Origin: Hyphomonadaceae bacterium
GTDB lineage: Bacteria > Pseudomonadota > Alphaproteobacteria > Caulobacterales > Hyphomonadaceae
Assembly: GCA_024743315.1 (NCBI GenBank)
Contig: JANSWU010000002.1
Span: forward strand, 434,001 to 498,000
Reading direction: 5' to 3'
DNA length: 64,000 bases
Position 1 is the stretch's first letter. Every line of letters starts with the position of its first letter. The translations under genes were made by a program, and so were the position numbers. Positions 53,572 to 64,000 of this stretch are shown piece by piece. Under the pieces are notes generated by a model. That model ran no database searches, was not told the origin of the DNA, and saw only the letters and a program-made list of their open reading frames with translations.

Positions 53572-56500
53572 CTAGAAGCTCAGTTTCGCACCGACAAAGA
53601 CGAACCGCCCAGCTGCCTCATAGACGCCTGCGATCGTATTCGCTTCTATGTTCGCCGTTGGGCTCGGTCCAAATGTTGGCACGACCGGCGGATCTTCATC
53701 AAAGACATTGTTCACGCCCGCTCTCAGCTCGACGAAGTCATTGACATCCCAGAATGCCGCAACATCAAAATAGTGTTTGCCATCGAGCACGGATGACACT
53801 GTGTTTGTGCCTGCTTGAGCAAATGTCGTGGTTTCACCGGTTACCGCATCGATCGAACTTATCCGTTCGACCTCAGATAAATAACGCCAAAGGATGCTAC
53901 CTCTCACATTCCAAGGGGAGTCGTAGACCGCTGTCACATTGTGCGAGTATTCAAAAGTCGGGTTGGCACAACTGTCATCATACAAGCCGACGCAATCAAA
54001 GGGTTCAATGCCGTCGCCGACACTGAACTCACTCTCCAGTTGGTAATTGCCGTTATACCGTAGCGCGATTTGACCCCATTCATCGAGATCATAGCCGTAA
54101 CTCACCGCGAGGTCGAAACCGGCCACGTTCAAAAAGCCCGTATTAATCGTACTGGCGTCAATTGCGGCTTGATTTCGAGGCACTTGAGTCAGCGACCCAT
54201 CTGTTCCTCGGTTGATGAGCGAACAGTATTCTTCCGCTCCGGTTTCAAGGCAGTTGGTGAGCGTGAAGGATGCTGGCGTCGCGGCGATCAGATCATTCAC
54301 TTCAATCTGATAATAATCCAATGAAACCAACAGGTCCGGAACAAGACGCGATTCATAAACGAAGCCGAGCGTAATCGTATCGGCTTCTTCGGGATTCAAG
54401 GTTGGATTGCCGCTGGTGATCACGTTCAACTGACCTGAATCTGGCGGAATGGCACCGTACTGAGCCTCGGTTACACCGGTCCGGGCACATTGCTCGAACG
54501 TGGCCGTCGGCGCGTCATCTGTGCCGGCGAACCCCGAACATGGGTCCGATAAGCTGCTCAGATTGGTATTTGTCGGGTTGAACAACTCGAACACGTTTGG
54601 CGCGCGCGCGGCTCGCTGATACTGTGCCCGCAATCGCAATTCATCATTCGGCGACCAGGTCGCTCCCACGGAATAGGTGTTTACCGAGAAATCGCCACCT
54701 TCGACACTGTTCAGAATATCGATCGACTCATAAGTGGAGTTGCGAATGGCGGCAGATAAACCGAGCTCTTTGATATAGGGCATGTCCTGGATCACGGGCA
54801 GCTGGATCTCTCCGAAGACTTCAAAAAGATCGGTTTCGCCGTTGGTCGGAAGAACAGCGCCGCCTGAGCCGACGAGACCGCCGCTTTGGTTTGTGCCGTC
54901 CGCTTGTGCCGTAATGCCGTCACGTCGATATTCGACGCCAATCAAAACGTTCGGCCCTTCTGTAGCCCAGGGGCTGGAAACGCCGTAATTGGTCAGGTCG
55001 GTCTGAGCCGTTGCCCCATAAACGAACTGCTCAATTGACCCTGTCGTCAATGTCGGGGTGTCGACATAGGCGGCCAAACCGGGATCAGTTTCTGCACCAA
55101 CCTGATAAGCTGACAAGAAAGGGATGCAATTGGGATCCGTGCCATTCAGGAAAGACCGGCAGACAAAATTACCGTTGCCATCGTCCACAATGTCGAGCGC
55201 CCGTGTAAGGTTCACCAAGGTCACCTGATTGGTTTGAAGGCGGTCCAGTTCAGTTTGCGCGACTTGGCCAAAGGCATCCCACTCAATGTGATCGAAAACG
55301 GTGCCGCGTAAGCCGCCGACAAATCGGAAATTCGTCAATGTTCTGGTATCTGTCCGACCGCCACCTTCAACGAATCGCCGTCGCACTTCAGCCTGCACAT
55401 AACCATCGCCAGCGACGCCTCCAGTCGTCGTGGCAATGTCTCGCGTGTAGAACCCGGTCGCCGGATCGATCACACCGCATAGCGCTGCAAGTTGTTCCGC
55501 TGTAAATAATGGATTGTCACAATTAACCTGATTGATCGCGCTTCCGAATGCCGCGGAAGGGGCAATGACTTGTGGCGATTTCGATTTGGAAAATCCAAAC
55601 TCGCTATAGGCTTCAATATTCGGGGAAATTTCATAGTGCCCCAAGAATCCTGCATTAAAGCGCTCGGTCGCCCGGCGAATAGGGTTTTGAGGGTTGAAAT
55701 TGAACGCATTATTGAGACCCGAGGAAAGCGTATTGTCACCGTTTAACGAGAAGCCGCCACCGGTGATTGGATTCCCTTCATCATCTGTTCTTACAGAGCC
55801 ATCGGCATTGTAAAGCGGAACCGCATCGGCGAGTGTGCCACCGGTGGGGATCGCCGGGGACAAAACGAAAGACGTGGGAAACGGTCCTTGATTTGATCCC
55901 AAGCAGAACGGATCGCCTCCAAACTCACCCAGCGCGCAACGCGCAAAATCGCGCGCCCCTTGATCGATGCCTTCATTCTCAAAGTATCGGAAATAAACTG
56001 TCGCATTGCCGCGACCATCATCCATGTTGGATCCCATGACGATGGAAAAATCATAGGTATCATTGGCCGTACTGGCACCGGATACTGTGTCTTCACCAAT
56101 GTTGGCGAGCGCTTGCTGCAGCGCGGAATTGTCATTGCTGAATTGATTGAAACCGTACTGGAAGTCTGCTTCGATGCCTTCAAAGTCGGACCGCAAGATA
56201 AAGTTGGCAACGCCTGCAACGGCGTCAGATCCATACACGGCGGATGCGCCGCCTGTGACAATCTCAACCCGCTCGACAAGCGGGGCAGGGATCAAATTGA
56301 CGTCGCTCGCATAGCCGCCAGATAATGGCGAGCCGGGCGGAAGACGTTTTCCATTCGCCAAGGCCAGTGTTCGGACAGACCCAATTCCGCGCAAGTCGAG
56401 CGTCGACGTACCGTTTGCGCCATTTGCGAATGATGAATTCTGGCTGTTCGCTCCGACCGATACTTGCGGCAGGGAATTTACCAAGTCGATCGTATCCACG

Positions 56501-56751
56501 GTGCCACGCAGATCAAACTGATCAGCGCCTATTGATGTCACCGGGCTCGAGGACGAAATGTTCGCATTGATAATTCGTGACCCGGTAACAGTAATGACCT
56601 CTTGAACGGACTCTGTGTCCTCAACAGTGGGGTCACCCGTTGTTTGAGTCTCATCATCTTGCGCTAAACCCGTTTGGGATAAGAGCGGGAGAGCTATTCC
56701 CGCAATAATTGATGTTCGCACCAAATGACGTCGAAAATTCGACTTTGTCAT
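53572..56751 (-). CDS. Large TonB-dependent outer-membrane receptor
   Basis: A 1059-residue receptor. The ATG at 56751 follows GGAGAGAGAA and begins a signal peptide ending around GLAQ. A TonB-box-like EVITVTGSRI is followed by the plug (VDLVNSLPQ, RIGSVRTLALANGKR-like segments, VEIVTGGASAVYGSDAVAGVANFIL) and a long barrel ending GRFVFVGAKLSF with terminal Phe. It is the kind of receptor abundant in Caulobacterales; the ligand is unknown. Its 5' end faces the sox operon's 3' end on the same strand, 277 bases away. Confidence 0.92.
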   Translation of the reverse strand: MTKSNFRRHLVRTSIIAGIALPLLSQTGLAQDDETQTTGDPTVEDTESVQEVITVTGSRIINANISSSSPVTSIGADQFDLRGTVDTIDLVNSLPQVSVGANSQNSSFANGANGTSTLDLRGIGSVRTLALANGKRLPPGSPLSGGYASDVNLIPAPLVERVEIVTGGASAVYGSDAVAGVANFILRSDFEGIEADFQYGFNQFSNDNSALQQALANIGEDTVSGASTANDTYDFSIVMGSNMDDGRGNATVYFRYFENEGIDQGARDFARCALGEFGGDPFCLGSNQGPFPTSFVLSPAIPTGGTLADAVPLYNADGSVRTDDEGNPITGGGFSLNGDNTLSSGLNNAFNFNPQNPIRRATERFNAGFLGHYEISPNIEAYSEFGFSKSKSPQVIAPSAAFGSAINQVNCDNPLFTAEQLAALCGVIDPATGFYTRDIATTTGGVAGDGYVQAEVRRRFVEGGGRTDTRTLTNFRFVGGLRGTVFDHIEWDAFGQVAQTELDRLQTNQVTLVNLTRALDIVDDGNGNFVCRSFLNGTDPNCIPFLSAYQVGAETDPGLAAYVDTPTLTTGSIEQFVYGATAQTDLTNYGVSSPWATEGPNVLIGVEYRRDGITAQADGTNQSGGLVGSGGAVLPTNGETDLFEVFGEIQLPVIQDMPYIKELGLSAAIRNSTYESIDILNSVEGGDFSVNTYSVGATWSPNDELRLRAQYQRAARAPNVFELFNPTNTNLSSLSDPCSGFAGTDDAPTATFEQCARTGVTEAQYGAIPPDSGQLNVITSGNPTLNPEEADTITLGFVYESRLVPDLLVSLDYYQIEVNDLIAATPASFTLTNCLETGAEEYCSLINRGTDGSLTQVPRNQAAIDASTINTGFLNVAGFDLAVSYGYDLDEWGQIALRYNGNYQLESEFSVGDGIEPFDCVGLYDDSCANPTFEYSHNVTAVYDSPWNVRGSILWRYLSEVERISSIDAVTGETTTFAQAGTNTVSSVLDGKHYFDVAAFWDVNDFVELRAGVNNVFDEDPPVVPTFGPSPTANIEANTIAGVYEAAGRFVFVGAKLSF

Positions 56752-56868
56752 TTCTCTCTCTCCTAAAAAACTGCCGCAATCGCGACCTCCATGTCCGCTA
56801 GTACAGGGGTGCAAAAGGAAGCGTGAAGTAACGCCCGTCAATCACTCGGAATGCAGAGAATAGTTGCA

Positions 56869-57028: not shown

Positions 57029-57805
57029 TCACCGCCGCACCGCCGGGCTCTCCGCTTCCAATCCTTGCGCTCGGGCGGCCAGGAACAATTCCACGGCGAC
57101 ATAAGTCGGGTCGCCATAGGGCAGGGGTTCGGCGCGTACGCCGGTGTCGCAATCACGCAAACGGCGCTGCAAGGAACCAAGGCTCTGCCATTCCAGGCGA
57201 TAGGCTGGGAATCCATTACCGTGGCCTTGGCTGATTGTATCGCCGCGCAGCTGCTTGCCCCAATTTTCGGTATGGCATTGTTGGCAGGACAGGTTGAATT
57301 GCCCCCGGCGCGTGATGAAATAGTCTAGGCCGAGCTCGTAATAGGGTGCAGCGTCACCGCTGACATCTACCGAGATTGGATCCCCATTTGATTGGTGCGC
57401 GATATAAGCGGTGAGGGATAACAGGTCTTCGCTTTCATAGGCGAGTGGCGGCAGGCCTTGATGACGCGTCCGGCAGGCATTGATGCGGCCTTCCAGGTTG
57501 ATCAGCTCGCCAGTCTCGGGATCCAGTTTCGGAAAGGACGCCGCCACGCCGTCGAGCCCGTTCTCATGGCATGTAAGGCAGCTCGGCTCGGTACTGGCGA
57601 CGGACTGAAACAAGCGTTCGCCGCGATCAACCCAAAGAAAGCCAGGATTTTCGAACGCGTCATCCTGAAGCGCTTGCGTTTCGGCCGTCAAAAACGCGTA
57701 GCCGCTTTGCAATTCATTTTGGGGGATTGAGGTCTCAGGCGCGATTTCGGTCCGGCTGCAGGCCGTCATTGAGATCAGGACGAGGCCCAACCCGACATGC
57801 TTCAT
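57029..57805 (-). CDS. soxA: SoxA, diheme c-type cytochrome of the Sox system
   Basis: A 258-residue cytochrome, likely a lipoprotein (MTAC near residue 15). Two CxxCH heme sites: Cys76-His80 (CLTCH) and Cys174-His178 (CQQCH). The catalytic/ligand Cys219 is in RLRDCDTGVRAE, followed by the family ending GDPTYVAVELFLAARAQGLE. With SoxX it attaches thiosulfate sulfur to SoxY as a thiosulfonate. The ATG at 57805 overlaps the soxZ stop (ATGA). It is the last gene of the operon. Confidence 0.93.
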   Translation of the reverse strand: MKHVGLGLVLISMTACSRTEIAPETSIPQNELQSGYAFLTAETQALQDDAFENPGFLWVDRGERLFQSVASTEPSCLTCHENGLDGVAASFPKLDPETGELINLEGRINACRTRHQGLPPLAYESEDLLSLTAYIAHQSNGDPISVDVSGDAAPYYELGLDYFITRRGQFNLSCQQCHTENWGKQLRGDTISQGHGNGFPAYRLEWQSLGSLQRRLRDCDTGVRAEPLPYGDPTYVAVELFLAARAQGLEAESPAVRR

Positions 57806-58122
57806 GTCACTGTGATGGTTGCGATTTCGCTCCACGCTTCCCCGTTTTGATCGGTCCATTTGAATTCAAGTTCGCCCGTTTCGGTGGCGACGGTATGAAA
57901 GGTCAGGATCGGATTGGCGGCAATGGCGGGTTGAAAATCCGAGGCAAACACCAACGCGCCATTATACCGGCATTCAAACCGTGTGATGATGTTGCGCGGG
58001 ATCACTTCGCCGCGTGATCCGCGACGGAAGCCGCTCTCCATTGGATGCTGGATTAACGCTTTGATTTCAATCACTTCACCGCGCTGCGCCGTGTCTGGGA
58101 CCGCAAGTCGAATAGCCGCCAT
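57802..58122 (-). CDS. soxZ: SoxZ, thiosulfate carrier partner
   Basis: A 106-residue beta-sandwich protein. IKALIQHPMESGFRRGSRGE and FASDFQPAIAANPILTFHT are strongly SoxZ-like. It forms the SoxYZ heterodimer that carries sulfur intermediates in the periplasm; no signal is seen, and export with SoxY by the Tat route is inferred. The ATG at 58122 lies five bases after GGAGG. Confidence 0.93.
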   Translation of the reverse strand: MAAIRLAVPDTAQRGEVIEIKALIQHPMESGFRRGSRGEVIPRNIITRFECRYNGALVFASDFQPAIAANPILTFHTVATETGELEFKWTDQNGEAWSEIATITVT

Positions 58123-58131
58123 CACATCCTC

Positions 58132-58599
58132 CTAAAGCACCACACAGGCGGCCAGCGTGACCACGGTTTCCATGCTGCCGGAATAGAGCGACCCGTCATT
58201 CATTTCAGCGATGGCCTGTATGGCTTGCGTGCCGGACATCCGAATGCGCGTTGACACCAAAGCTTTTCCGGAGCGTGGCGTGAGGTGAAACTGACCAATC
58301 AATGGCAAAGGGTTGCGCGGCGACAGGATGACGATTTGACGAACATAATCGGTCTCGGTCATCGGGCTGTCGACGGCGACGGTCAGCGGCACGGAGTGAC
58401 CATTCTCGGCTATCGGCGGCAGGGTGACGGTCACGCGACCCTCTTGGATTGTGCGGTCCCCGAACAGTTCGGTTCGGGCGCGCAAAAGATCGGCTTCGCT
58501 GGCATGGCTCATCTGCGGCAAAGACGTGATCAGGACCGCGCTGCCACTGCCGGCGAGAAACCGGCGTCTATCGAGCTGAAATGTCTTAGCCATCATCAT
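58132..58599 (-). CDS. soxY: SoxY, sulfur-carrier protein with altered C-terminal arm
   Basis: A 155-residue protein with a Tat signal (LDRRRFLAGSGSAVL). The body matches SoxY (TYVRQI-like DYVRQIVILSPRNPLP, TRIRMSGTQAIQAIAEMNDG). Canonical SoxY ends in GGCGG, a flexible arm whose Cys carries the substrate; here the last residues are TLAACVVL, so the Cys (Cys152) is kept but the flanking glycines are replaced. The reading is clear over 58132-58160. Three ATGs compete as start; 58599 is the first. It overlaps soxX by 14 bases. Confidence 0.9.
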   Translation of the reverse strand: MMMAKTFQLDRRRFLAGSGSAVLITSLPQMSHASEADLLRARTELFGDRTIQEGRVTVTLPPIAENGHSVPLTVAVDSPMTETDYVRQIVILSPRNPLPLIGQFHLTPRSGKALVSTRIRMSGTQAIQAIAEMNDGSLYSGSMETVVTLAACVVL

Positions 58600-59044
58600 C
58601 TTCAATTCTCAGACTGCTCAGATAAGCAACCAGATCCTCAACTTCCTGAGCGCTGAGAACGGGGTCATCCTGAAACGCCTCTGCCACCTGATATAAGTCA
58701 TGATTGCGATAATAGGAGGGCATCAGCGTTCCGGGACGGACAATTTGATAATCGGCAATACGCAAGCGGATCTGACCGGCGCTCAAACGCGCTGCGACAT
58801 CGCTCAAGTCCGGACCGACATTGCCCTGAAATTCTGTCGCTAACCCGGCCACTTGATGACACAGCACACAATGGCCCGTTTCTCGATCAGTGAACACAGA
58901 AAGACCTGCCGGGACGGATCCGGCAGTCTCCGTAAGCGGTGAAGGGATCGCATCACCAACGATTTGAGCCGGGGTCACTAATCGTGATTGCGGCTCAGTG
59001 CAACTGGCCAGCACCAAAGCGCCGATCAGCTGGACCAGCCTCAC
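58586..59044 (-). CDS. soxX: SoxX, monoheme c-type cytochrome of the Sox system
   Basis: A 152-residue lipoprotein cytochrome (lipobox LASC, Cys15). Heme site CVLCH (59-63) and distal Met108 in GTLMPSYY; GPDLSDVAARLSAGQIRLRI is the SoxX family segment. It pairs with SoxA. The GTG start overlaps the fccB stop (GTGA). Confidence 0.91.
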   Translation of the reverse strand: MRLVQLIGALVLASCTEPQSRLVTPAQIVGDAIPSPLTETAGSVPAGLSVFTDRETGHCVLCHQVAGLATEFQGNVGPDLSDVAARLSAGQIRLRIADYQIVRPGTLMPSYYRNHDLYQVAEAFQDDPVLSAQEVEDLVAYLSSLRIEDDDG

Positions 59045-60315
59045 CCAAACGCCTCTGACGTAATCGTTTCGAACCAATGGACAGCTTGCGCCGCCTCTGC
59101 TGCTCGGATGGATTTGTCAGCGCCGAGTGGGCTGACCCCACCGGCTCCGGCGATGCTGCTCAAACTGCTGCCTTCATTGGTGTAAACGCCAGCGATCGAA
59201 ATCGCTTCGTCTGGGGTTGTGTAGGAATAACATGTATTCGCCAATACTGTCGGTTGCGGAGGTAAATCTGACAGCAGGCGTGCCACCGCCACGGCGCAGA
59301 CCTTGGCCTGCAAATTGGCTGAAAAGGCAGATTTGGGCATCGGCGCCGCAATCGTCGCATCTCCAATGACATGAATGTCGGATTGGAGCCGCGATTCAAA
59401 ACTGATCGGATCGATCGGGCACCAGCCAGTGGCGTCAGAGACGCCGGCGCGATCCGCAATCTCACCGGTTTTCTGGGGCGGTATCACATTGATGACAGTG
59501 GCCTGAAGGGTTTCAAAATCTGTCGACACCGTATTTGTGGCAGCATCGACGCGAGACACACGGCCATCATCAATCGCGCCGCGCCATTCGAGATGGTCCG
59601 GATAGTGTTCCGCCCAGGCTTCCTGAAACAAGGTCATTTTGGAAAAGCTGTCCTTGGCATCCAGCACGATCAGTTTTGAGTTTGGTTTCTGGGTCTTCAA
59701 ATAATGCGCGATCATGCTGGCGCGCTCATAAGGGCCAGGCGGACAGCGATATGGCGCCGGGGGAACAGTCATGATCACGGTGTCCCCATCCGGCATGGCC
59801 TGTAATTGTTCGCGCAAAAGCCGCGTTTGCGGGCCCGCTTTCCAGGCATGCGGCAGCAATTCTGCGGCGTCCTGGCTGTATCCTTCTATCGCGCCCCAAC
59901 GCATATCGACGCCTGGTGACAGGATCAGCCGGTCAAAGGGCAGGGTGACCCCGCTAGCGAGCGAGACGGTTTTGTTGGTCACATCGACATCTAGGGCGCG
60001 ATCATACGCGAGCGTGATGCCGCTGCTTTCAAGCCCCGTATAAGAAAACGCCTGAGCGTCTAGCGGGCGCCCTAAACCGATCACGAGATTACTGAACGGA
60101 CAAGCCGTGTACTTGGCATTCTCCTCGACCAGTGTGATCGAGGCCGAAGGCATTAGTTGGCGCAGGAGCCTGGCAGCACTGGCGCCGCCAAAACCGCCTC
60201 CAACGATTACGATGTTCGGTTTTGCCTGGCTAAGGCCGACGCTGGGAAGGCCAACGAGGCCTAGACTGATCGCAGCGCCTTTGATCAGGGTCCGACGATT
60301 GAACCGGGACGTCAT
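59041..60315 (-). CDS. fccB: Flavocytochrome c sulfide dehydrogenase, flavoprotein subunit (FccB/SoxF)
   Basis: A 424-residue flavoprotein exported by Tat (NRRTLIKGAA). The NAD(P)-like FAD motif is IVIVGGGFGGASAARLL. Cys72 in YTACPFSNLVIG is the covalent FAD site, and Cys191 (PYRCPPGPYERA) and Cys362 (NTCYSY) are the redox pair. It oxidises sulfide and passes electrons to a cytochrome c. Start and stop overlap both neighbours by four bases. Confidence 0.92.
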   Translation of the reverse strand: MTSRFNRRTLIKGAAISLGLVGLPSVGLSQAKPNIVIVGGGFGGASAARLLRQLMPSASITLVEENAKYTACPFSNLVIGLGRPLDAQAFSYTGLESSGITLAYDRALDVDVTNKTVSLASGVTLPFDRLILSPGVDMRWGAIEGYSQDAAELLPHAWKAGPQTRLLREQLQAMPDGDTVIMTVPPAPYRCPPGPYERASMIAHYLKTQKPNSKLIVLDAKDSFSKMTLFQEAWAEHYPDHLEWRGAIDDGRVSRVDAATNTVSTDFETLQATVINVIPPQKTGEIADRAGVSDATGWCPIDPISFESRLQSDIHVIGDATIAAPMPKSAFSANLQAKVCAVAVARLLSDLPPQPTVLANTCYSYTTPDEAISIAGVYTNEGSSLSSIAGAGGVSPLGADKSIRAAEAAQAVHWFETITSEAFG

Positions 60316-60659
60316 GGAGCGCTCCCGAGTGGCGCGAGCGCCGCGCTCACTTCGGCGATGTCGTCATCGCTATAGCCGCGCGCGAGCCGGTGCATTACTG
60401 TCGTACCGTCGGCTTCAGACTTGTACTGCAAAAGACGGGTTTCGAGCGCTTCTCGTGTATAGCCGTTGAGTGAAACGATGGCGCCAGACGCGGCGCTGTG
60501 GCAGCCGCTGCAAGCAAGCGCCAGCTGCGCGCCAGAATCCGTGGCGTCGCTAAGACTGAACGCCGGTTGCTGTGTATCTCGATCACTCGCAGATCCACAG
60601 GCGGCTAAGCTGATGACACTTAGCGCGCCCATGAGGATCTGGAGGTTGCGATCAGGCAT
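60312..60659 (-). CDS. Monoheme cytochrome c (FccA-like)
   Basis: A 115-residue lipoprotein cytochrome (signal ending LAAC). One CSGCH heme site and the segment TVMHRLARGYSDDDI resemble the cytochrome subunit of flavocytochrome c. The ATG overlaps the Mo-hydroxylase stop by eight bases, and its stop overlaps the fccB start. It may serve as acceptor for FccB, for the Mo-hydroxylase, or for both. Confidence 0.86.
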   Translation of the reverse strand: MPDRNLQILMGALSVISLAACGSASDRDTQQPAFSLSDATDSGAQLALACSGCHSAASGAIVSLNGYTREALETRLLQYKSEADGTTVMHRLARGYSDDDIAEVSAALAPLGSAP

Positions 60660-62871
60660 CCCGGAGGTTTTGGTCCTTAATTGGTAGATTGCGTACGCGC
60701 TTGCCGGTCGCCGAATAGATGGCATTCAGCACAGCCGGAGCGGCAACCGCGATGGTCGGCTCGCCGACACCACCCCAGAACCCACCAGACGGCATGATGA
60801 TGGTTTCAACCTCCGGCATGGCGGCAATACGCATGGAATTGAACGTATCGAAATTTTGTTCCTGCACCTCGCCGCCTTCGAAGGTAATCTCTCCGTAGAG
60901 CATGGCGGACAGGCCATAGACGAAGGAGCCTTCAACTTGCGCCTCGATCTGTTGTGGGTTCACCGCATGGCCAGGGTCGGTGGCCGCGACGATACGGTCA
61001 ATCTTGAGTTCGCCCGCGTCACTCACGGTGACCTCGGCGCATGCCGCCACGTACGCGCCGAAGCCGTACATTACACAAAGACCCCGCGCCTTGCCATCAT
61101 CCGAGCCCCAGCCCGAACGATCAGCAACCGCTTGCAGAACTGCCGCCGCTTCCGGGCTGTCCTGCAGGTGCGCGAGCCGGAATTCGAGCGGATCCCGGCC
61201 GGCTGCATAAGCCAGCTCGTCCATGAAACACTCCAGATAGATCGCATTCTGGTTCAGGTTCACCCCGCGCCAGAATCCGGGTCGTACAGGCGGATTGCGC
61301 ATAGCGTGGTCGACCAGGAAATTATCAAACGAGTATTTCAGGGTTTGATCTTCCAATCGCGGGTCAACGCCGGATGGTAGCAGGCCTTGGAAGGTCGCAT
61401 AATCGACACCGTCTTGCAGGGCTTGCGGGATCAGCGCGGCCAGGATGGATTGTCCGGAAATCCGCAAATGCAGCCCGGTCAGATTGCCATCAGCGTCCAA
61501 GGCGCCGCGTACGCGCCCTTTGGTCGTGGGATGGAAGAAGCCATGGATCATATCTTCCTCACGGGACCACAGCAATTTGATCGGCGTGCCGGGCATCTCC
61601 ATGGCGAGCATCACGGCTTGTTGGACATAGTCCGGCGCTCCTCGACGCCCGAAGCCGCCGCCAAGATGGATCTTGTAGACCTCGCACTGTTCGATCGGAA
61701 GACCGGAAGCTTCAGAGACCGCCGCAAGCGCGGCCTCCCCATTTTGAGTTGGGCACCAGATTTCACAGCGATCTTCGGTATATAGCGCTGTTGTGTTCAT
61801 CGGTTCCATGCAGGCATGGTTCTGGAAGGGCATGTTGTAAGTTGCTTCCACAACTTGTGCTGCGTTTGCAAAGGCGCCTGCTACATCGCCGCCGCCATTC
61901 CCGACAAAGGCCTCCTCGGCGGTCAGGCCATCATCCAGTTCGGCTTCAAACTCAGCCGTGGAGAAGTCGACGCCGCCTTGCCACTCCACTGGAAGGGCTT
62001 GCAGAGCCTTGTGCGCTTGCCACCAGGTGTCGGCGATGACAGCAACGGCATTGTTACCTTCTCCAAATGGGTTTCGCACGCTGACAACCTTTTGCACGCC
62101 GGGCATGCCTTCGACCGCGGCAGCATCGAAAGAAGCAAGCGTTGCTCCGATTTTCGGTGCCTGTTTGATCGACGCGCTGAGCATGCCATCGAGCTGAATA
62201 TCAGCGCCGTAAACCTGCTTGCCGGTCAGTTTCTCGGCGGTATCCAAGCGCGGCTTCGGTTGTCCGATAATCTTCCATTCGCTTGGATCTTTCACCGTGA
62301 CTTCAAGAGGTGGGGCGAGTTGAGCAGCCGCATTGGCAACCTTGCCATAAGTCGTGGTCTGTCCGCTCGGGCCGTGCGTGATGATACTATTCTCTGACGT
62401 GCATTCAGATGCAGGCACGCCCCATTCATTGGCCGCGGCTTCAATCAGCATCGCTTTTGCCGCAGCGGCGCCCTCGCGCACATAGTCCTGCGACCCACGA
62501 ATGCCCTGGCTGCCGCCGGTTGAGAAATCACGCCAGACGCGTTCGCGCGCCAGGTTTTCGCCAGGCGTTGGATACTCCGTCGTCACTTTATCCCAATCGC
62601 AGTCGAGTTCATCTGCGACGAGCTGCGCGAGGCCGGTGAGCGTCCCTTGGCCCATCTCGGAGCGGGCAATCCGGACCGTGACAGTGTCATCATGGTCAAT
62701 GTGCACCCAGGCATTCACTTCCGGATTTGGCGGAAGGTCGGAATAATCGGGAGCGTCTGCTTCGGTGTCGCCAGTCGGCTGCGAGCAGGCCGACAGGATG
62801 CCGATTGTCAGGCCGGTGGCGCCGGTGGCGACGATGAAATTTCGGCGGGAGAGGTGGATTGTATCAGCCAT
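60652..62871 (-). CDS. Molybdopterin-binding large subunit, xanthine dehydrogenase family (IorB-like)
   Basis: A 739-residue periplasmic Mo-hydroxylase subunit with a Tat signal (SRRNFIVATGATG, LSAC). KVYGADIQLDGMLSASI-like entry, GGGFGRRGAPDYVQQA and the C-terminal GGVGEPTIAVAAPAVLNA with the catalytic Glu are present. The family hydroxylates aldehydes, purines or N-heterocycles; the substrate here is unknown. It works with the upstream [2Fe-2S] subunit (11-base gap). It is not related to SoxC, which belongs to the sulfite-oxidase family. Confidence 0.9.
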   Translation of the reverse strand: MADTIHLSRRNFIVATGATGLTIGILSACSQPTGDTEADAPDYSDLPPNPEVNAWVHIDHDDTVTVRIARSEMGQGTLTGLAQLVADELDCDWDKVTTEYPTPGENLARERVWRDFSTGGSQGIRGSQDYVREGAAAAKAMLIEAAANEWGVPASECTSENSIITHGPSGQTTTYGKVANAAAQLAPPLEVTVKDPSEWKIIGQPKPRLDTAEKLTGKQVYGADIQLDGMLSASIKQAPKIGATLASFDAAAVEGMPGVQKVVSVRNPFGEGNNAVAVIADTWWQAHKALQALPVEWQGGVDFSTAEFEAELDDGLTAEEAFVGNGGGDVAGAFANAAQVVEATYNMPFQNHACMEPMNTTALYTEDRCEIWCPTQNGEAALAAVSEASGLPIEQCEVYKIHLGGGFGRRGAPDYVQQAVMLAMEMPGTPIKLLWSREEDMIHGFFHPTTKGRVRGALDADGNLTGLHLRISGQSILAALIPQALQDGVDYATFQGLLPSGVDPRLEDQTLKYSFDNFLVDHAMRNPPVRPGFWRGVNLNQNAIYLECFMDELAYAAGRDPLEFRLAHLQDSPEAAAVLQAVADRSGWGSDDGKARGLCVMYGFGAYVAACAEVTVSDAGELKIDRIVAATDPGHAVNPQQIEAQVEGSFVYGLSAMLYGEITFEGGEVQEQNFDTFNSMRIAAMPEVETIIMPSGGFWGGVGEPTIAVAAPAVLNAIYSATGKRVRNLPIKDQNLRDA

Positions 62872-62882
62872 GTCTATCTCCC

Positions 62883-63335
62883 TTAGCTCTTCTCAACGGC
62901 GAGCTTGATGCCTTTGCGGACGCGTGCCAGTGTCCCGCAACGACAGATATTCGTAATCTGCGCATCAATGTCTTCGTCAGTTGGGTTTGGGGTGTCATTG
63001 AGCATGCCAGAGACGGCCATGATCATGCCGGGCTGGCAATATCCGCATTGTGGAATATCAAGTTCAGCCCAGGCTTGTTGCACGGGATGGCTGGCATCTT
63101 CAGAAAGGCCTTCAATCGTCGTTATCTCTTCGTCACCCGTCAAAGCGCCAACCGGATAAACACAGGAGCGGACCGGACTGCCATTAATATGGATCGTGCA
63201 AGTTCCGCATTGCGCGATGCCGCAGCCATATTTGGTGCCGGTTAGACCGACTTGTTCTCGGATCACCCAGAGGAGGGGCGTATCATCTTCGACCTCCACT
63301 GTGACCGTTTCACCATTGATCTTGAGTGTCGCCAT
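62883..63335 (-). CDS. [2Fe-2S] small subunit of the Mo-hydroxylase (IorA-like)
   Basis: A 150-residue protein with two [2Fe-2S] clusters: a plant-type set at Cys38, Cys43, Cys46 and Cys58 (YGCGIAQCGTC) and a helical set at Cys97, Cys100, Cys131 and Cys133 (QCGYCQPG, CRCGT). It carries electrons from the molybdenum subunit. The ATG at 63335 follows GGAGG by nine bases; the open frame starts three codons earlier with an ATG abutting that site. It is the first gene of the eight-gene operon. Confidence 0.9.
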   Translation of the reverse strand: MATLKINGETVTVEVEDDTPLLWVIREQVGLTGTKYGCGIAQCGTCTIHINGSPVRSCVYPVGALTGDEEITTIEGLSEDASHPVQQAWAELDIPQCGYCQPGMIMAVSGMLNDTPNPTDEDIDAQITNICRCGTLARVRKGIKLAVEKS

Positions 63336-63497
63336 GCTGGGCATCCTCCGGCACTTTGGCGCGGTTATCCCCCATAGGACAAACCTTCGCGCATTAACCT
63401 AAATAATGATGGAAACATTCAGCGAGTAAAGACCGATTTCAACGATTTCTCGGCTTATCTTTGCAGTCGCGTCTCATTCGCAAGCTGAGGCGAGGGC

Positions 63498-64000
63498 TTA
63501 TGGCAAGCTGCCAATCAGAAGCGCGTCAGTTTGAGCGCCCTGCCTGAGTGCATCCGCATTTGGTTCCCGGCGCAGCAAGGCGTTGCAGGACAGGAAAGGA
63601 TGCAAAAGCGAGCTATCCTGATTGGCGGCGGGCGTAAGTAAGAGTGTGCCGTCCTCGGCAATCGTTGCGGTAGCGCGCATGAAATGCTCTCGAGGCCCAT
63701 TCTTTGGAATGTTCGACTCCAATCGAACGCGGATCAGGCGGTCGGCCCATGGCCGTCCGAGCAGCGGGGCCAGGAAGAGGTGTGCGCAGACCAAAGCCGA
63801 GGCCGGGTTTCCCGGGAGTCCCAAGACGCACGTAGATTTTGACCGGGAGAGCCAAGTTGGTTTGCCGGGCCGAACGGCGATTTTCGAAAAAACCGGCTGA
63901 TACCCTCGAGTACGAAAGGCCGCCTGCATATGATCGTGATCGCCCACAGAAGCACCTCCGATCGGGACAAAGACATCAATATCGATGCTATTATCGAGCG
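63498..64000 (-). CDS. moeA: Molybdopterin molybdenumtransferase MoeA, 5' end outside the window
   Basis: The C-terminal ~167 residues of MoeA, which inserts molybdate into molybdopterin. VPIGGASVGDHDHMQAAF and KIAVRPGKP with CVLGLPGNPASALV are family motifs. The frame stays open to the window edge, so the GTG at 63947 is internal, not a start. It lies 162 bases upstream of the Mo-hydroxylase operon on the same strand, fitting a need for cofactor. Confidence 0.88.
   Translation of the reverse strand, partial: LDNSIDIDVFVPIGGASVGDHDHMQAAFRTRGYQPVFSKIAVRPGKPTWLSRSKSTCVLGLPGNPASALVCAHLFLAPLLGRPWADRLIRVRLESNIPKNGPREHFMRATATIAEDGTLLLTPAANQDSSLLHPFLSCNALLRREPNADALRQGAQTDALLIGSLP

Follow-up and report, generated by a model that had tools for sequence, protein, structure and literature searches.

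An eight-gene operon in the genome of a Hyphomonadaceae bacterium joins a molybdenum (Mo) hydroxylase to genes for a sulfide dehydrogenase-type flavoprotein (FccB) and for the sulfur-oxidation (Sox) proteins SoxX, SoxY, SoxZ, and SoxA. It lies in a stretch of 64,000 nucleotides (contig JANSWU010000002.1, positions 434,001 to 498,000), hereafter the window, whose own numbering we use. That the Mo-hydroxylase and SoxXYZA form a unit, and that this unit is independent of SoxB, is well supported. We lean toward reading the eight genes as a single periplasmic system: a variant of the Sox carrier pathway without SoxB, in which the Mo-hydroxylase takes SoxB's place and acts on a sulfur-containing, probably organic, substrate bound to SoxY. 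We put forward only tentatively the wider claim that a Mo-hydroxylase can act on a substrate held on a carrier by a disulfide, and that the operon represents a further Sox branch for periplasmic oxidation of organic sulfur in widespread heterotrophs.

Open reading frames (ORFs) and Pfam/NCBIfam matches place the genes on the minus strand between 63344 and 57029 in the order [2Fe-2S] subunit, Mo-cofactor (MoCo) subunit, small cytochrome c, FccB, SoxX, SoxY, SoxZ, and SoxA. With the likely starts, the seven junctions measure +11, -8, -4, -4, -8 to -20, +6, and -4 bases in gene order, which, judged from spacing, is the pattern of one putatively translationally coupled operon. The gene order and close spacing reported in a preliminary description of this DNA, made from sequence alone, thus hold (minus strand, junctions from -20 to +11). 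Of the bounds given there, 57029 stands; the [2Fe-2S] gene has an in-frame ATG at 63344, ahead of the one at 63335, which is its second. Between 56700 and 64000 there is no excess of promoter-like sites (4, versus a shuffle mean of 3.1) or of terminator-like sites (6, versus 6.7). Twin-arginine (Tat)-like signals were seen by eye in the MoCo subunit, FccB, and SoxY, and lipobox-like cysteines in the MoCo subunit, the cytochrome, SoxX, and SoxA, so the proteins look periplasmic and partly membrane-tethered; no signal peptide was recognized by eye in the [2Fe-2S] subunit. Among related loci the lipobox-like pattern is a minority feature (MoCo subunit 9/49, SoxX 11/41, SoxA 9/44, cytochromes 10/22), counts that carry the uncertainty of the start sites.

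Passages of one study describe a Sox cycle in which SoxXA couples thiosulfate to SoxY and the metal site of SoxB acts on the SoxY conjugate (PMC5336275). The 3.3-Mb window genome, which is 99.93% complete, has a single SoxY, no SoxB at E<=1e-3, and no match to SoxC at E<=1e-20. The window SoxY ends in AACVVL where the C-terminal arm would be GGCGG, and its best NCBIfam match is TIGR04487, "SoxY-related AACIE arm protein" (154.6 bits, below the curated cut-off of 172). Because SoxB is absent, thiosulfate could not be processed by the route of the Sox cycle; the missing SoxB together with the rebuilt carrier arm argues against ordinary thiosulfate chemistry, and we rejected an ordinary thiosulfate Sox system on these grounds. 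The absence of SoxB from the genome, the changed SoxY arm, and a run of Mo-cofactor genes upstream go beyond the preliminary description.

The same association recurs in other genomes. We compiled 172 SoxY-bearing loci, comprising the best 80 of 106 loci found in named genomes with the window SoxY and the regions at all 92 places matched by TIGR04487 in 385 genomes of the class (78 of which match at 1e-20, 20 above the cut-off). Recruited by the window SoxY or its family model, the set describes relatives of this SoxY rather than all Sox loci; each locus reaches about 10 kb from SoxY or to the contig end, and absence of SoxB from a locus refers to that reach. A MoCo subunit lies within 8 kb of SoxY in 49 loci, none of which has SoxB, and SoxB is present in 42 loci, none of which has a MoCo subunit (L015 and L137, both on the SoxB side, have identical SoxY and contigs of equal length, look like one record, and are counted twice). 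The arm divides along the same line. All 42 SoxB loci have GGC followed by G, whereas 48 of the 49 Mo loci lack GGC (AAC in 34, GAC in 11, and PAC, SAC, SGC, and GGC in one each). Of the 81 loci with neither enzyme, 56 (L027-L082) consist mostly of methylotroph SoxYZ-like carriers, four represent Mo operons that are split or cut by contig ends (L089, L116, L130, and L140), and the remainder have GGC, GACS, or other arms and no SoxB in reach. Five loci with the GACS arm (L189, L191, L194, L198, and L199) encode SoxXYZA or SoxYZ with neither SoxB nor Mo-hydroxylase in reach, three of them with a divergent cytochrome-FccB pair; these are possibly a further SoxB-less variant.

Carriers of the operon include several Henriciella (among them the cultured H. 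aquimarina LMG 24711, L009), a Spongiibacteraceae metagenome-assembled genome (MAG), Bradyrhizobium sp. STM 3843, and MAGs of Burkholderiaceae and Alcaligenaceae; the beta- and gammaproteobacterial carriers rest on MAG binning. A plasmid of Methylobacterium sp. NMS14P has all eight genes in identical order, one of Roseomonas marmotae has them rearranged (FeS-MoCo-SoxXYZA-cytochrome-FccB, where FeS is the iron-sulfur subunit), and a Neorhizobium galegae plasmid also carries the operon. SoxB loci on plasmids of Methylosinus and Indioceanicola have the GGCGG arm and no MoCo subunit, as a rule of mutual exclusion predicts.

We asked the same of whole genomes. SoxB exceeds the cut-off in seven of the 36 genomes checked that have an AAC-arm or Mo-linked locus, a set that excludes G127. 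Nine more have only sub-cut-off matches (47-174 bits versus 550), which we take to be other phosphoesterases; 10 of 14 control genomes likewise give sub-cut-off matches to the model. Six of the seven positive genomes have SoxB next to a second SoxY of the GGCGG type (L147, L148, L151, L165, L170, and L172), and in the seventh, G361, SoxB lies at a distance of about 3 Mb. Of 105 genomes from the window's family, 47 match TIGR04487 at 1e-20 (10 of the 105 exceed its curated cut-off), and the MoCo subunit is found at E<=1e-200 in exactly the same 47. SoxY-type and MoCo genes share a contig, about 2 kb apart, in 45 of these, and occupy different contigs in G398 and G409. The trait is patchy, occurring in 23 of 29 genomes of the window's own genus and in 5 of 10 genera, so the match between SoxY and MoCo subunit does not reflect one shared ancestor alone. 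SoxB is found in none of the 105 genomes at 1e-60; no control genome was positive there, though the same model scored above 800 bits in seven other genomes. SoxC exceeds its cut-off in three of the 105, none among the 47. The short loci of 29 family carriers all show FccB-SoxX-SoxY-SoxZ-SoxA with the AAC arm. The single unit of Mo-hydroxylase, FccB, and SoxXYZA suspected earlier is therefore upheld, and the linkage is not peculiar to this genome, the circumstance that the preliminary description had named as counting against it: it appears in 49 of 172 SoxY loci, and among the 105 family genomes SoxY type and MoCo subunit occur in an identical set of 47. Chance juxtaposition was rejected given recurrence across loci, plasmids, and family genomes, and chance neighborhood or assembly error has next to no standing beside the 49 recurrences, the complete plasmids, and the seven close junctions.

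Phylogenies, built by a quick method without bootstraps, place the Mo-linked proteins apart. In a joined SoxY-SoxZ-SoxA tree from which the arm columns were removed, one branch (Shimodaira-Hasegawa-like approximate likelihood ratio test support 97) parts 44 Mo-linked from 36 SoxB-linked rows, where shuffled labels need about 27 changes. The preliminary description had offered a transferred fusion of two modules as an option; a local fusion of this kind does not fit with Mo-linked SoxYZA forming one separate lineage. The MoCo tree of 70 rows contains a core clade of 44 (support 100), 38 of them Sox-linked; it leaves out the long branches L200_20 and L196 as well as the fragments L124_14234 and L114_1, which an earlier tree had also omitted. 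Among the six other core-clade rows (L235, L236, L237, L258, L261, and L262), L236 and L237 are on contigs that end after FccB, and the genome of L235 has SoxXYZA with the AAC arm on another contig (L130). Further Sox-linked MoCo subunits fall in other clades (families f88, f79, and f126, and Entotheonella), which implies either repeated origin of the pairing or exchange of the enzyme. Twelve of the next-ranked relatives of the MoCo subunit (39-43% identity, L242-L253, some in short stretches) have no Sox genes adjoining; one fragment and a G147 copy of 37% identity are not in this set, and the G078 copy was among the loci from the start.

In the core set, MoCo distances correlate with those of FeS, SoxX, SoxY, SoxZ, SoxA, and FccB (r of 0.82, 0.67, 0.75, 0.75, 0.82, and 0.67 over 26-37 loci, with none of 500 shuffles as high); 12 divergent loci are omitted (L026, L136, L143, L180, L182, L183, L187, L188, L196, L200, L202, and L203). 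Such in-step divergence would be expected of a co-travelling unit, and shared descent alone would give the same. Likely the whole unit moved between lineages and onto plasmids. In Rhizobium sp. 007, R. gallicum, and Sinorhizobium meliloti T073, one plasmid carries both a MoCo subunit (61-62% identity) and a distant SoxY match. Stretches from S. meliloti ml47 (L263), Rhizobium sp. 007 (L264), and S. fredii (L265) encode SoxYZ-cytochrome-FccB with an ATNGC[LR] arm and no SoxXA or SoxB, and the S. meliloti record annotates this SoxY as a thiosulfate oxidation carrier.

The catalytic residues of the parts are retained. In at least 97% of copies in the Mo set we find SoxY C154; SoxA C94/C97/H98, C192/C195/H196, and C237; SoxX CxxCH and M119; and FccB C191 and C362, the last two conserved across 31 Mo-locus copies. 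We take the kept Sox residues to be those of sulfur coupling and C237 to be the heme ligand cysteine of SoxA; with SoxA and SoxX both above their cut-offs (TIGR04484 and TIGR04485) and C237 and CxxCH conserved, the operon encodes a SoxXA with its catalytic heme cysteine. The Mo-hydroxylase has the architecture of its class, with the MoCo domains in a separate large subunit and a [2Fe-2S] small subunit. Glutamate E704 of its GVGE-type motif (GxGE), presumably the catalytic residue, is present in 47 of 48 Sox-linked rows, the remaining row being unaligned there, and is invariant in an 11-sequence alignment (A2); G404, G406, G408, R409, and R410 (GGGFGRR) are constant across 11 divergent members. 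Among solved structures, the MoCo subunit is closest to 8gy3_C, the large subunit of a membrane-bound aldehyde dehydrogenase from Gluconobacter (E 4.6e-81 over residues 2-737), and a predicted model (mean predicted local distance difference test score 78.5) gives a TM-score of 0.80 against it. From its residues the enzyme looks like an intact carbon-hydroxylating Mo-hydroxylase. The small cytochrome has a single CxxCH in all 22 Mo-locus copies found.

Gene content and order, co-occurrence, SoxB absence, the altered arm, and the conserved catalytic residues are observed in the sequences themselves, and a mechanism can be proposed that would accommodate them. SoxXA, having kept its hemes and ligand cysteine, would oxidatively couple a sulfur-containing substrate, probably an organic thiol or thione and not thiosulfate, to the SoxY cysteine. 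The arm, in which AAC and then V, I, T, or L replace GGCGG, may then present the bound substrate to the Mo-hydroxylase; such a handover is suggested because the enzyme occurs at loci that lack SoxB and the arm has changed along with it. Mo-hydroxylases of the xanthine-oxidase family hydroxylate C-H groups beside a heteroatom or in aldehydes. The substrate on SoxY therefore probably includes a carbon moiety, which the aldehyde-dehydrogenase-like enzyme would hydroxylate with water. Electrons could pass from the Mo-hydroxylase via the [2Fe-2S] subunit to the c-type cytochromes, and the sulfur remaining on SoxY may leave as sulfane or sulfide. Where they are present, FccB and the small cytochrome are the likely oxidizing pair for the released sulfide or persulfide. 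What the substrate is, how it passes between proteins, in which order the steps run, and what FccB does are inferred from these features.

Several observations weigh against this proposal. Next to the Mo-hydroxylase, Entotheonella locus L026 keeps a GGCG arm and so breaks the arm rule. Neither FccB nor SoxX is general: of the 49 Mo loci, 31 have FccB no farther than 8 kb from SoxY, and a SoxX was found in 41. The Mo and Sox parts of G091 are on different contigs, and G396, one of the 47 family carriers, has a sub-cut-off SoxC-like match (193 versus 420 bits). No conserved neighbor names a substrate: the genes directly flanking the 49 Mo loci have no cluster in common except the Mo-cofactor genes in Hyphomonadaceae. 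In the complete genome G066 (L234, 7809-11416) the order is FeS-MoCo-SoxX-SoxA, with no carrier genes between soxX and soxA, and a search of the whole genome found no SoxY at E<=0.01, so the carrier is not always kept. Finally, three Rhizobiaceae plasmid loci (L258, L261, and L262) encode core-clade FeS-MoCo with no Sox genes nearby. These Sox-free members and G066 suggest an enzyme able to work independently of SoxYZ, and so favor the main idea of the preliminary description, an alternative in which two electron-donating modules, one an aldehyde or heterocycle hydroxylase and the other built on sulfide and SoxYZ, share cytochromes but no substrate and are merely co-expressed. Sox-free members of the clade do have a cytochrome c gene of their own (the MoCo subunit is annotated beside one in L258 and L261), and G066 pairs the enzyme with SoxXA as if SoxXA were simply an electron acceptor. 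Co-expression, however, leaves unexplained the absence of SoxB at 49/49 loci, the arm change at 48/49, and the perfect co-occurrence of a patchy trait, and we regard shared cytochromes as an unlikely account.

Somewhat less probable still is that SoxY carries a carbon group, an aldehyde forming a thiohemiacetal on the cysteine that the Mo-hydroxylase would oxidize to a thioester for later hydrolysis. An aldehyde dehydrogenase is indeed the closest solved relative of the MoCo subunit, and passages of two papers describe fused SoxYZ-like carriers that, with a SoxH-like hydrolase, accompany quinoprotein alcohol dehydrogenases in other bacteria (PMC12997753, PMC11237559). Such chemistry would leave SoxXA and FccB, sulfur-redox proteins whose catalytic cysteines are kept, without a task, and no hydrolase gene recurs directly next to the operon.

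The Mo-hydroxylase might instead act on sulfur itself as a stand-in for SoxCD or SoxB, oxidizing sulfide or thiosulfate on SoxY by xanthine-oxidase-type chemistry. SoxB is missing where the enzyme stands (over-cut-off SoxB is absent from 29 of the 36 locus genomes and from all 105 family genomes), and over-cut-off SoxC is absent from 102 of the 105. We give this option little credence, since known family members hydroxylate carbon, the residues for carbon chemistry (E704 and GGGFGRR) are kept, and nothing is present to hydrolyze a sulfonate.

The preferred reading, with the Mo-hydroxylase acting on SoxY-bound organic sulfur, sets the operon apart from known systems. Like the Sox thiosulfate pathway, it has SoxX, SoxA, SoxY, and SoxZ homologs with catalytic cysteines and hemes; unlike it, the operon has a Mo-hydroxylase, lacks SoxB, SoxCD, and GGCGG, and has SoxYZA on a separate branch. 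Neorhizobium and Methylobacterium plasmid records use the TIGR04487 name for SoxY of the same operon, whereas the window SoxY scores below the cut-off and the family name tells neither partner nor function. The Mo-hydroxylase is related over its full length to the Gluconobacter oxydans membrane-bound aldehyde dehydrogenase (8gy3) and the isoquinoline 1-oxidoreductase type, with the FeS-MoCo pair and catalytic Glu, but the identity to 8gy3 is 28% over the structural alignment and the partner here is a Sox carrier system; we take the partner of 8gy3 to be a multiheme cytochrome subunit, and we assume the likeness of the MoCo subunit to Ior-type enzymes. In flavocytochrome c, FccA is a diheme cytochrome subunit. 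The window FccB resembles FccAB/SoxEF in having both redox cysteines; its partner differs, being a small monoheme cytochrome with one CxxCH and no Pfam match, and 18 of the 49 Mo loci have no FccB inside the 8-kb range. TIGR04557, the quinoprotein dehydrogenase-associated carrier, likewise stands beside an alcohol/aldehyde-type periplasmic oxidase in passages of PMC12997753 and PMC11237559. The carriers described there are SoxY-SoxZ fusions, whereas the window has separate genes together with SoxXA and only partial TIGR04557 scores. In SAR324 draft genomes from hydrothermal plumes, FccB is flanked by soxYZ with no other sox subunits recovered, and an isoquinoline 1-oxidoreductase is reported; the passages on SAR324 mention no Mo-hydroxylase-soxYZ linkage, SoxB absence as a rule, or arm (PMC4782131).

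A Mo-hydroxylase with SoxXYZA and without SoxB was not found described in the open-access papers searched (for longer result lists, among the matches listed), and the earlier remark that such hydroxylases are not a recognized part of Sox agrees with the Sox systems in that literature. The proposed Sox-type carrier chemistry with a different processing enzyme is thus new relative to the literature searched; the SoxY subfamily itself is already named by NCBI (TIGR04487). Parts of other papers describe a route that retains SoxB and substitutes other steps (PMC7608252) and a Bradyrhizobium diazoefficiens soxY2 that is not essential for thiosulfate oxidation (PMC5748708). For the idea of an ergothioneine desulfhydrase, no fitting paper was among the matches listed in a literature search. 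A recent survey of 1,631 SoxY sequences deleted those without a "GGC" motif as poor quality (PMC11237559), so the SoxY lineage of the Mo operons would have been filtered out.

In genomes and metagenomes, SoxX, SoxY, SoxZ, and SoxA are commonly taken to mark thiosulfate oxidation, and a Roseomonas record gives the SoxY encoded here the label "thiosulfate oxidation carrier protein SoxY." Such assignments are wrong if the operon has another function, and its carriers are easily scored as thiosulfate oxidizers. The system also offers a direct way to ask what else a SoxY carrier can carry besides sulfur in inorganic form, and whether substrates bound to a protein are accessible to a Mo-hydroxylase.

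Table 1. Genes of the operon and the adjoining Mo-cofactor gene, in window coordinates.
Feature	Position	Strand	Details
moeA, 3' part, end gene of Mo-cofactor synthesis run	63498..64000	minus	run extends past window
[2Fe-2S] subunit of Mo-hydroxylase	62883..63344	minus	153 aa; Fer2 + Fer2_2; start ATG 63344 or 63335
Mo-cofactor subunit, Ior/aldehyde-dehydrogenase type	60652..62871	minus	739 aa; MoCoBD_1 + MoCoBD_2; Tat-like SRRNF, then lipobox-like LSAC
Small monoheme c-type cytochrome, probable lipoprotein	60312..60659	minus	one CxxCH; ORF opens 60725, likely start ATG 60659
FccB-type flavoprotein, sulfide dehydrogenase family	59041..60315	minus	424 aa, Tat-like signal; FCSD_central E 9.4e-50 + FCSD-flav_bind; 5n1t_A E 2.7e-117
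SoxX, monoheme cytochrome c, probable lipoprotein	58586..59044	minus	TIGR04485 74 bits vs cut-off 61; ORF opens 59077, likely start GTG 59044
SoxY carrier, altered arm TLAACVVL vs TIGGCGG	58132..58605	minus	157 aa; PF13501; TIGR04487 154.6 bits
SoxZ	57802..58125	minus	107 aa; TIGR04490 93.1 bits vs cut-off 76
SoxA, diheme cytochrome c with C237	57029..57805	minus	TIGR04484 216 bits vs cut-off 110; 1h31_A E 3e-49; ORF opens 57859, likely start ATG 57805

Mo-hydroxylases of the xanthine-oxidase family need an XdhC-type gene. Directly upstream of the operon and on the same strand is a Mo-cofactor run (L192, 6599-12475) with moeA, moaC, a MoaB-type MoCF_biosynth gene, moaE, moaA, an xdhC-mobA fusion, and a LysR-type helix-turn-helix gene. 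Mo-cofactor genes also occur before or after the operon in L004, L005, L006, L007, L009, and L133, and not in L008; L003 ends at a contig edge. Downstream, a large TonB-dependent receptor gene (53572-56841) adjoins the operon, and relatives of it occupy the same place, in either orientation, in five Henriciella/Hyphomonadaceae loci (L003-L007). The ligand of this receptor could hint at the substrate. An accessory gene that names the substrate was sought and rejected, no cluster being common to the genes flanking the 49 Mo loci apart from those for the Mo cofactor noted above.

Other neighborhoods differ in content. An Alcaligenaceae locus (L013, 3901-18914) encodes two FeS-MoCo pairs, SoxXYZA, and FccB, followed by a dihydropyrimidine-dehydrogenase-type gene and two hydantoinase-type genes, recognized by eye without a family search. 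These flanking genes are suggestive of a thio-heterocycle substrate in the Alcaligenaceae lineage; as a candidate substrate for the operon the thio-heterocycle was dropped, since c39, the gene cluster to which one of the hydantoinase-like genes belongs, is represented close to only 3 of the 49 Mo loci and also to 1 of the 42 SoxB loci. A gene resembling the formylglycine-generating enzyme (FGE-sulfatase, PF03781) adjoins FccB or SoxYZ in L182, L187, L202, and L203, where the Mo-hydroxylase is from another clade; the assignment was checked with Pfam in L187 and made by clustering in the other three.

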